Origin: Spisula solida
Lineage: Eukaryota > Mollusca > Bivalvia > Venerida > Mactridae
NCBI GenBank assembly: GCA_947247005.1
Contig: OX365948.1
Span: 1,054,001-1,118,000, forward strand
Length of the DNA: 64,000 nucleotides
Direction: 5' to 3'
In this document: one piece after another, positions 19,401 through 25,400 of the stretch
How positions within the stretch are numbered: the first letter of the stretch is position 1
Layout of the letters: every line of letters begins with the position of its first letter
Notes under the pieces: generated by a model
What the model was told of the DNA's origin: nothing
What the model saw: only the letters and a program-made list of their open reading frames with translations
Databases searched by the model: none
Position numbers and translations under genes: made by a program

Positions 19401-22400
19401 AAAATCTTGAGTCATTTGAACTTAAGGTGACAAAGTTATGCTCCAGACAAGAAATGCTCTAATAAAATCAATCAAAGGGAAATAATTCAAAAACTATGAC
19501 AGGTAGAGTTATGGTTCTTGCGCACTGCACTCCGGCTTATTGCAAGAAACATGCCTATCAATTCTTGAGTCATTTGAACGTAAGGTGACAAAGTTATGCT
19601 CCGGACAAGAAATGCTCTAATAAAATCAATCAAAGGAAAATAATTCAAAAACTATGACAGGTAGAGTTATGGTTCTTGTGCACTGCACTTCGGCTTATTG
19701 CAAGAAACATGCATACCAAATCTAGAGTCATTTGAACTTAAGGTGACAAAGTTATCCTCCGGACAAGAAATGCTCTAATAAAATCAATCAAAGGGAAATA
19801 ATGAAAAAACTATGACAGGTAGAGTTATGGTTCTTGCGCACTGCACTTCAGCCTATTGCAAGAAACATGCATACCAAATCTAGAGTCATTTAAACTTAAG
19901 GTGACAAAGTTATCCTCCGGACAAGAAATGCTCTAATAAAATCAATCAAAGGGAAATAATTAAAAAACTATGACAGGTAGAGTTATGGTTCTTGCGCACT
20001 GCACTTCAGCCTATTGCAAGAAACATGCATACCAATTCTTGAGTCATTTGAACTTAAGGTGACAAAGTTATGCTCCGGACAAGAAATGCTCTAATAAAAT
20101 CAATCAAAGGGAAATAATTAAAAAACTATGACAGGTAGAGTTATGGTTCTTGCGCACTGCACTTCAGCCTATTGCAAGAAACATGCATACCAATTCTTGA
20201 GTCATTTGAACTTAAGGTGACAAAGTTATGCTCCGGACAAGCAATTTGTGACGCCGCCGCCGCCGCCACCGCCGCCGCCGCCGCCAAAGTAACACCTATA
20301 TGTCGCCTTTTCAGGCGACACAAAAATCAATCAAAGGGAAATAATTCAAAAACTATGACAGGTAGGGTTATGGTTCTTGCGCATTGCACTTCGGCTTATT
20401 GCAAGAAACATGCATACCAATTCTTGAGTCATTTGAACTTAAGGTGACAAAGTTATGCTCCGGACAAGCAATTTGTGACGCCGCAGCCGCCGCCAAAGTA
20501 ACACCTATATGTCGCCTTTTCAGGCGACACAAAAATACTTCTTATGAATGCCAACAAGAGCCCCTTTAGCTATCAACTGTCACCTTTAGTTTCAGTTAGT
20601 CATTTATCATGCTTTTTTTAAAGTTCTTTTTAAACGATATTAACTTATTCATTGTATGAGCTATCAAAAAATTCCACGTTTTTCCTCTGTTTTATTTCAA
20701 TTCTGAATGTATTTTCGGCCTGGATATGTACAGTCCCAATATGGACTTCAGTCATTCTGCATAAATAAATGGCTGCCGTAGTCGCCGCGAGTTTCATGCT
20801 CGATGATAACAAATGCTTCAGTGACGTCCAATCGTTCGATAGATAATAATGTCAAGCAAATGTTACCTCATTTTAACTGGAGAATCGATAGAGGCCGTAC
20901 CGTTTTGGACCAGTGTCTTACCATGAACCGTACCGAGACCTAACAAATTCGATATACTGCCCAACGGTATATCGTTACACCCTTATTAAAGACATAGAAA
21001 TATTGGCAAATTTCACTAATTTACGTAATTTTCTAATGAGTCAAAATCAAATAAATTTTATTTTCTTTCTCATACAGCAAATCAAGATTTTCAGACTGTT
21101 CTGGATATGTAGGACCCCTGATATAAGATATTTAACCTACCATCTAGTTAGACAATCCTCTACAGCGTTAGTTAAAGCATTCATGACCAAGATGAAGGGA
21201 ACCTTACCATCTAGTTAGACAATCCTCTACAGTGTTAGTTAAAGCATGACCAAGATGAAGGGAACCTTACCATCTAGTTAGACAATCCTCTACAGCGTTA
21301 GTTAAAGCATTCATGACCAAGATGAAGGGAACCTTACCATCTAGTTAGACAATCCTCTACAGCGTTAGTTAAAGCATGACCAAGATGAAGGGAACCTTAC
21401 CATCTAGTTAGACAATCCTCTACAGCGTTAGTTAAAGCATGACCAAGATGAATGGAACCTTACCATCTAGTTAGACAATCCTCTACAGCGTTAGTTGAAG
21501 CATGACCAAGATGAAGGGAACCTTACCATCTAGTTAGACAATCCTCTACAGCGTTAGTTAAAGCATGACCAAGATGAAGGGAACCTTACCATCTAGTTAG
21601 ACAATCCTCTACAGCGTTAGTTAAAGCATGACCAAGATGAAGGGAACCTTACCATCTAGTTAGACAATCCTCTACAGCGTTAGTTAAAGCATGACCAAGA
21701 TGAAGGGAACCTTACCATCTAGTTAGACAATCCTCTACAGCGTTAGTTAAAGCATGACCAAGATGAAGGGAACCTTACCATCTAGTTAGACAATCCTCTA
21801 CAGCGTTAGTTAAAGCATGACCAAGATGAAGGGAACCTTACCATCTAGTTAGACAATCCTCTACAGCATTAGTTAAAGCATTCATGACCAAGATGAAGGG
21901 AACCTTACCATCTAGTTAGACAATACTCTACAGCGTTAGTTAAAGCATGACCAAGATGAAGGGAACCTTACCATCTAGTTAGACAATCCTCTACAGCGTT
22001 AGTTAAAGCATTCATGACCAAGATGAAGGGAACCTTACCATCTAGTTAGACAATCCTCTACAGCGTTAGTTAAAGCATGACCAAGATGAAGGGAACCTTA
22101 CCATCTAGTTAGACAATCCTCTACAGCGTTAGTTAAAGCATTCATGACCAAGATGAAGGGAACCTTACCATCTAGTTAGACAATCCTCTACAGCGTTAGT
22201 GAAAGCATTCATGACCAAGATGAAGGGAACCTTACCATCTAGTTAGACAATCCTCTACAGCGTTAGTTAAAGCATGACCATGATGAAGGGAACCTTACCA
22301 TCTAGTTAGACAATCCTCTACAGCGTTAGTTAAAGCATTCATGACCAAGATGAAGGGAACCTTACCATCTAGTTAGACAATCCTCTACAGCGTTAGTTAA

Positions 22401-25400
22401 AGCATGACCAAGATGAAGGGAACCTTACCATCTAGTTAGACAATCCTCTACAGCGTTAGTTAAAGCATTCATGACCAAGATGAAGGGAACCTTACCATCT
22501 AGTTAGACAATCCTCTACAGCGTTAGTTAAAGCATGACCAAGATGAAGGGAACCTTACCATCTAGTTAGACAATCCTCTACAGCGTTAGTTAAAGCATGA
22601 CCAAGATGAATGGAACCTTACCATCTAGTTAGACAATCCTCTACAGCGTTAGTTGAAGCATGACCAAGATGAAGGGAACCTTACCATCTAGTTAGACAAT
22701 CCTCTACAGCGTTAGTTAAAGCATGACCAAGATGAAGGGAACCTTACCATCTAGTTAGACAATCCTCTACAGCGTTAGTTAAAGCATGACCAAGATGAAG
22801 GGAACCTTACCATCTAGTTAGACAATCCTCTACAGCGTTAGTTAAAGCATGACCAAGATGAAGGGAACCTTACCATCTAGTTAGACAATCCTCTACAGCG
22901 TTAGTTAAAGCATGACCAAGATGAAGGGAACCTTACCATCTAGTTAGACAATCCTCTACAGCGTTAGTTAAAGCATGACCAAGATGAAGGGAACCTTACC
23001 ATCTAGTTAGACAATCCTCTACAGCATTAGTTAAAGCATTCATGACCAAGATGAAGGGAACCTTACCATCTAGTTAGACAATACTCTACAGCGTTAGTTA
23101 AAGCATGACCAAGATGAAGGGAACCTTACCATCTAGTTAGACAATCCTCTACAGCGTTAGTTAAAGCATTCATGACCAAGATGAAGGGAACCTTACCATC
23201 TAGTTAGACAATCCTCTACAGCTTTAGTTAAAGCATGACCAAGATGAAGGGAACCTTACCATCTAGTTAGACAATCCTCTACAGCGTTAGTTAAAGCATT
23301 CATGACCAAGATGAAGGGAACCTTACCATCTAGTTAGACAATCCTCTACAGCGTTAGTGAAAGCATTCATGACCAAGATGAAGGGAACCTTACCATCTAG
23401 TTAGACAATCCTCTACAGCGTTAGTTAAAGCATGACCATGATGAAGGGAACCTTACCATCTAGTTAGACAATCCTCTACAGCGTTAGTTAAAGCATTCAT
23501 GACCAAGATGAAGGGAACCTTACCATCTAGTTAGACAATCCTCTACAGCGTTAGTTAAAGCATGACCAAGATGAAGGGAACCTTACCATCTAGTTAGACA
23601 ATCCTCTACAGCGTTAGTTAAAGCATTCATGACCAAGATGAAGGGAACCTTACCATCTAGTTAGACAATCCTCTACAGCGTTAGTTAAAGCATGACCAAG
23701 ATGAAGGGAACCTTACCATCTAGTTAGACAATCCTCTACAGCGTTAGTTAAAGCATGACCAAGATGAAGGGAACCTGTAACATTAGGTGGAGGTATAACC
23801 ATCATAAACTTCCCTCTCTTCTCAATGTCCATCTTAGCATCCTACAATACAATAAATAAACAATAAATCAATGCTGATCTAAGACCACATCAATGGTTAG
23901 ACCATGGAAACTGTAAACTCATTGCATTCTCAAAGGATTAGTTTATTTTTTCCCTTCAAATTTAATTTAATAATTATTTAGGTATGAAGAAATTTTAAGG
24001 TGAAGTGGTAAAACAACAAAGTCCACATTCACATAAAGCATTTGACATCTGCACAAAGTGTTTCACTTCTGATGCATAAGTTTTTCACTAATCTTGGTGC
24101 ATAAGCTCTTTAACACCTTTAAACATTTTGTTATAGAATATTTATAAAAACTAGATGTTTTAAATTTATGTCTGTAACATACATTGTACTCTGGTTTAAA
24201 GAATCCTTGCTCTGTCCACCATTCATACCAAGCGGCCTCAACATAGGCAGGGCTGTATGCTTCAGGCATAGGACATTGTGTATCTGAAATGTATAACCAT
24301 GATAACAGCATTAAATTCAACATAGGCAGGGCTGTATGCTTCAGGCATAAGACATTGTGTATCTGAAATGTATAACACATGATAACAGCATTAAATTCAA
24401 CATAGGCAGGGCTGTATGCTTCAGGCATAGGACATTGTGTATCTGAAATGTGTAACCATGATAACAGCATTAAATTCAACATAGGCAGGGCTGTATGTTT
24501 CATTTTTATGTGTGACATAATTCCTGTTCGTATTTATAACTTAGCTTCTGACAGAATTAAAGACTGACCTTTTTTGGCCCCTGCAGGTGTAGGAATATCG
24601 TACGTTATAGCAGCTTTATCCTCCTTCTTTGGTTTCTTTTTCTGAAATAAAAGTTACTTATAATTATGCGGAAGCTATCATTATTATTGTTCGTGAGGCA
24701 TTCTCACTTGACAATGTGTCATACTTTAAGTAAATGAGACAATTCAAACATTTGTCAAGAATATCATATTTCCGTAATATCCCTGGGAAGGTCCAACATG
24801 ACTACATTATTGCAACAACAGTGAGTGGTATAATAATGCATGTATAGTAGTACAATTCCAAACAAGAATTTTCACTACATACATAATAAATGCTTGATCT
24901 CATCCTGACATCCCAAACTGAGACCCTACATACGTTTCACAACCTATAGAATTAAAGGTAGGAGCTCATTTGGGACTAGTCCAATGAACAACATTTATAG
25001 GTGAAAATTAATTTCTATGCATGAATTGATTTATGTTAAACAAAGAACTACCAAAAAGCCCTTGGTAGCAGCTTGCTATGAGTCTGACTATGTGATGACA
25101 CCCTACCAGTGAGCAGGTCGCTATGAGTCTGACTATGTGATGACACCCTACCAGTGAGCAGGTCGCTATGAGTCTGACTATGTGATGACACCCTACCAGT
25201 GAGCAGGTCGCTATGAGTCTGACTATGTGATGACACCCTACCAGTGAGCAGCTCGCTATGAGTCTGACTATGTGATGACACCCTACCAGTGAGCAGGTCG
25301 CTATGAGTCTGACTATGTGATGACACCCTACCAGTGAGCAGGTCGCTATGAGTCTGACTATGTGATGACATCCTACCAGTGAGCAGCTCGCTATGAGTCT

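Follow-up and report, generated by a model that had tools for sequence, protein, structure and literature searches.

In this study, we found that the junction between exon 4 and intron 4 in the valyl-tRNA synthetase (ValRS) gene of the clam Spisula solida is repeated in tandem about 40 times, with the coding end of the exon and its splice donor in the repeated unit. Taken jointly, the results are probably best explained by a minisatellite spanning a splice donor, in which the exon 4/intron 4 junction was duplicated and expanded and the resulting array is tolerated through use of the first donor.

The array lies in a 64,000-nt stretch of contig OX365948.1 (the window), within a gene on the minus strand for which 19 exons with 823 codons and no stop codon were modelled. 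Eighteen of these exons were placed by tblastn with the ValRS of Mactra antiquata and the small exon 2 from the reading frame and splice sites, and all 19 are bounded by GT and AG in the model. The model passes the curated valS cut-off (TIGR00422; 894.8 bits vs. 612.1) and is 92.4% identical to the protein of Mactra antiquata, 84.1% to that of Ruditapes philippinarum and 75.5% to that of Haliotis rufescens. ValRS is a conserved, intact gene over 19 exons and 823 codons; no counterpart of the C-terminal residues of Mactra ValRS (about 240) was found within the window. The exon model and tblastn bear out the first-pass annotation of this DNA, which had recognized exon 4 of ValRS and its HIGH motif in the repeat. 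The features on which the argument rests are as follows.

1290..29325, minus strand: ValRS gene, exons 1-19 of the spliced exon model.
23717..23841, minus strand: ValRS exon 4, 125 nt, ending in phase 2, with the HIGH motif present as HLGH (exon model and tblastn to Mactra antiquata ValRS).
17534..17698, minus strand: ValRS exon 5, to which exon 4 is joined in splicing (exon model).
21140..23774, minus strand: exon 4 donor array, 41 units of 63 or 67 bp (TRF and minus-strand unit parse).
23711..23716, minus strand: live exon-proximal 5' splice site gtaagg, the sole frame-keeping donor of 41 (exon model and donor translations).
22554..23711, minus strand: units 2-19, first copy of an 18-unit block, 1158 bp, 1 mismatch to the second copy.
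21396..22553, minus strand: units 20-37, second copy of the block, 1158 bp, 1 mismatch to the first copy.

The array proved real at the size first proposed (about 40 units): TRF reported it at 21134-23776 with a period of 63, 41.1 copies and a score of 4677, and 41 units were parsed. Each unit consists of the last 58 coding nt of exon 4 plus GTAAG. The array thus has the tandem units of 10-100 bp in many copies that define a minisatellite, and its unit 1 holds the live donor, which is repeated in later units. Unit 1 is the 3' end of live exon 4, its 58 exonic nt being identical to those of unit 2. The donor ATG/GTAAG (slash at the exon end) is kept in 40 of the 41 units and is replaced by ATG/GTAGG in the last, in agreement with the earlier statement that every unit carries a donor. 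The array is not a product of chance: after shuffling of a 30-kb stretch, tandem partners of 30-mers matched at 22/30 at best and never reached 26/30. The 34-nt core of the unit had no exact match in viral_contigs.

The units are less uniform than first described. The first-pass annotation had every unit encoding the same 20-residue peptide, a claim that has to be abandoned, since the exact peptide is encoded by 17/41 units (live exon included), while 10 carry a single missense change and 14 are broken in frame by an insertion of 4 bp, which gives them 67 bp except where the array end truncates the final unit. These frameshifts and missense changes indicate that the copies are without coding constraint. 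The 17 intact units form the commonest type, A (63 bp), which matches the live exon 4 end (58 nt) plus GTAAG exactly; that unit 1, sitting in the open exon, is of this commonest type speaks for the donor minisatellite. From unit 1 to unit 41 (23774 down to 21140), the types run AABABCDBIBEFAAAAAGHABABCDBABEFAAAAAGHABJK. Some of the 41 units may stem from a recent duplication of a block or from the assembly, as the two 18-unit blocks differ at 1 base; such a duplication is also compatible with a copy number that varies between individuals. That an assembly error, such as a wrongly doubled block, created much of the copy number is very unlikely: the near identity of the two 1158-bp blocks is what such an error would leave, but 10 types stand beside type A in a patterned order, and 23 units remain when one block is removed.

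Mean pairwise divergence among units 1-40 is 0.011 with the insertion excluded, which marks the present array as young. Of the two readings offered at first, a very young array or an exon homogenized with it, youth therefore stands. Gene conversion that homogenizes exon 4 with the array, and so ties the evolution of the exon to that of the array, would account for a live exon end identical to the commonest unit type; we consider it unlikely, since youth explains this identity without conversion, and the exon has neither the 4-bp insertion nor any of the missense variants. Moreover, of the 40 copies outside the exon, 24 would alter or disrupt the protein, and their transfer into the exon by conversion would thus frequently do harm.

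For the origin of the array, we infer a tandem duplication of the exon 4/intron 4 junction, the first one having occurred between two AGGTT microhomologies. AGGTT is found at both ends of the array: at the start of the unit the exon sequence is TTACAGGTTCCC, and at the far end it is GGTAGGTTAAA or, in a longer reading, GGTAGGTTAAAT. A sequence common to both ends is what microhomology-mediated tandem duplication would be expected to leave. Expansion would then have proceeded through slippage or unequal exchange, including duplication of the 18-unit block. Tandem duplication of AGGT segments is described as a route of intron gain, in the part of that work considered here (PMC4974935), and resembles the clam array in multiplying splice signals, with a multi-copy 24-bp case in fission yeast; the difference is that AGGT duplication makes a new intron, whereas the clam array lengthens an existing one.

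The tolerance of the array would depend on donor choice. Exon 4 ends in phase 2 at ATG/GTAAGG, and the claim that any other donor meets TGG TAA at once held in full: translated in silico, all 40 downstream donors lead to a stop as residue 166. A dormant coding repeat was ruled out by the same translations. Donors were scored with a small leave-one-out weight model built from 24 donors of ValRS and prostaglandin E synthase 2 (PTGES2), the neighbouring gene, in which the live exon 4 donor reached 7.93 and that of the last unit 6.35. Sites scoring at least 7.93 numbered 40 in the array region (live donor included), vs. 8 in 15,640 intronic nt outside arrays. Seven folds of one- and two-unit pieces (four RNA, three DNA) were no stabler than their shuffles (z -0.40 to 0.97), so concealment of array donors by structure was not supported. 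Both results count against first-donor use, as many sites equal the live donor in strength and no unusual fold hides them. Nothing local marks the first donor; if it is chosen, position must matter. The spliceosome would then match the first donor to the acceptor of exon 4 through exon definition and position, and the rest of the array would be removed with intron 4. The remaining donors would be silent or slightly leaky, with leaked transcripts passing to nonsense-mediated decay (NMD), and the array copies would be mainly neutral passengers.

Cryptic micro-exons had also been suggested from the strings CTAAC and CTGTAG in the units. The strings exist, but the geometry is poor: the candidate micro-exon has 19 nt, which is not a multiple of 3, the micro-intron would have 44 nt, and TAACTAAC lies a few nt before its AG, probably too near to it, which makes this a weak reading.

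The exon 4 array is of the same kind as the minisatellites of human CBS, ABCA7 and IFI6, and is a large case; a limited literature search (titles and abstract starts) found no such minisatellite in molluscs or bivalves. Turri et al. 1995 is said to have reported that the minisatellite of human IFI6 (6-16) supplies several splice donors. In this multiplicity of donors the clam array and IFI6 appear alike. In IFI6, two downstream repeat donors are described as used and as making isoforms, which is a counter-example to first-donor use, whereas the clam downstream donors all meet a stop (PMC4526556, in part). The human CBS 31-bp VNTR, c.1444_1467+7(16_21), has by its name a unit made of an exon end and the first 7 intron nt, and, as far as the passages drawn on go, it is tandem like the clam array, with units differing by single substitutions, and is polymorphic; it has 16-21 copies of 31 bp (PMC2630376), vs. 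41 copies in the clam, where the unit measures 63 or 67 bp and includes 58 coding nt.

The choice of one donor among about 40, which had been posed as a problem for an essential gene, has by analogy a precedent in human ABCA7. Its intron 18 VNTR, as described in the portion of the source used here, has a 25-bp unit in 12-427 copies and starts at the donor GT of the exon (PMC5954066). As in the clam, a minisatellite at an exon's donor brings further donors in its units; retention of one unit in ABCA7 is frameshifting, amounts to 2 ± 1% and is higher when NMD is blocked (PMC5954066). The ABCA7 unit begins at GT and has no coding sequence, according to the same portion, in contrast to the 58 coding nt of the clam unit (PMC5954066). 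Human precedents of the same architecture, with minor downstream donors as in ABCA7, thus favor the donor minisatellite, and ABCA7 suggests that a choice of the first donor by position is workable. Skipping of the next exon (exon 19) in ABCA7 is given as 12-45% by tissue and grows with repeat length, and longer arrays are linked to lower expression (PMC5954066); these effects of length mean that regarding the clam array as neutral may be wrong. They also favor, together with the 40 downstream poison donors, a dosage regulator, in which copy number would set the share of transcripts that use such donors (stop at residue 166) or skip exon 5 and would thereby tune the level of ValRS. We regard such a regulator as quite unlikely, as one-unit retention in ABCA7 is described as unchanged with repeat length (PMC5954066, in part).

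Besides the exon 4 array, for which we favor the donor minisatellite tolerated through its first donor, repeats that the first-pass annotation left unmentioned at this array meet splice junctions elsewhere in ValRS and in PTGES2, which lies on the plus strand with six modelled exons and 73% identity to a Mactra protein. Synteny of ValRS and PTGES2 may be conserved in Mactra. All five features below come from TRF and the exon models.

10024..10953, minus strand: array at the exon 13 donor, 31-bp unit (TGAAACAAG/GTCAGT...) in 30 copies, with GT kept in 29 (exon 13 = 10945-11141).
24238..24502, minus strand: array at the exon 3 acceptor, with a 79-bp repeat that yields three acceptors (24442, 24362 and the live 24283; exon 3 = 24183-24283).
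15434..15867, minus strand: 42-bp array that nearly fills intron 7 (15431-15880), directly adjoining the acceptor of exon 8.
1449..3143, minus strand: 18-bp array, 94 copies, which stops at the acceptor CAG, 3 nt short of exon 19.
40578..40676, plus strand: PTGES2 duplication of 47 bp in 2.1 copies, in which the donor of exon 5 (40480-40594) occurs a second time.

The exon 13 array repeats 9 exonic nt, and the downstream exon 13 donors with the searched motif lead to a stop as residue 584 in 28/28 cases; the second PTGES2 exon 5 donor leads to a stop as residue 358. Of the two upstream exon 3 acceptors, one leads to a stop, whereas the other (24442) would extend the exon by 53 codons (159 nt) that stay in frame and contain no stop, a possible isoform. 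The exon 3 repeat resembles human CBS 844ins68, a duplicated intron/exon junction, but differs from it in that 844ins68, in the part of the source considered, is a single 68-bp duplication at intron 7/exon 8 whose original site is bypassed (PMC2630376). Several splice-junction repeats in one gene (the exon 4 and exon 13 donors and the exon 3 acceptor) are unusual.

Further repeats were observed near splice junctions. A 41-bp array at 14665-14922 in intron 8 is clearly similar to the intron 7 array, so that one repeat family flanks exon 8. The 18-bp array (1446-3143 with the CAG) stands in place of the usual sequence before the splice site at exon 19. A 42-nt copy of the acceptor of exon 18 and of the first 26 nt of that exon lies some 870 bp upstream, near 4511-4552 (97.6% identity), and exon 18 sequence recurs in a shorter, diverged form directly before the live acceptor (region 3531-3760). 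Elsewhere in the window, TRF reported satellite-like dispersed arrays of about 145 and 158 bp (18167-20245, 37783-38887, 43464-44131 and 47366-49050), and a minus-strand open frame at 52574-52864 matched Pfam Ndufs5 (E 5e-5, 23.9 bits vs. a cut-off of 21.2).

It is possible, though doubtful, that splice junctions are preferred birthplaces of minisatellites in this lineage, with microhomology at exon edges seeding tandem donors and acceptors. The test set was drawn from 50 TRF rows and comprised 17 arrays with periods of 12-79 in the two gene spans (14 in ValRS, 3 in PTGES2). Rows lying elsewhere had been removed, as had periods below 10, satellites of 134-160 bp and rows that duplicated one another by overlap; the exon 18 copies, found by eye and BLAST, were not counted. 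Four of the 17 arrays strictly span a splice junction, vs. 0.64 expected (P 0.003); the corresponding counts were 3/14 in ValRS only (P 0.014) and 3/16 without the focal exon 4 array (P 0.016). Five of 16 arrays touch a junction within 5 bp when the focal one is excluded (P 0.001, under a null that places a single unit only). With five satellite arrays restored, the expectation rose to 1.24, giving P 0.03 for four spanning arrays and P 0.10 for three without the focal array. A coverage test showed no excess and pointed in the opposite direction: 2/46 junctions lay at the centre of a tandemly repeated 30-mer, vs. 34% (ValRS) and 15% (PTGES2) of the positions in introns at a distance from exons, with a detector that misses exon 13 and its 9 repeated exonic nt. 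The excess of junctions over random seeding (P 0.001-0.10, depending on the arrays counted) is post hoc, comes from two genes and is only suggestive.

Should splicing rely almost entirely on the exon-proximal donor, nature would have provided here a test of exon definition against some 40 equal rivals. The wider junction pattern deserves attention more than the single array does. If the seeding reading is true, an essential gene with 41 donors at exon 4, 30 donor units at exon 13 and three acceptors at exon 3 would be a natural experiment on how the spliceosome chooses among dozens of identical sites. Should junction seeding be general, gene predictors would be misled by dozens of good donors, and it would steadily supply novel splice sites, lengthened introns and alternative ends of exons.
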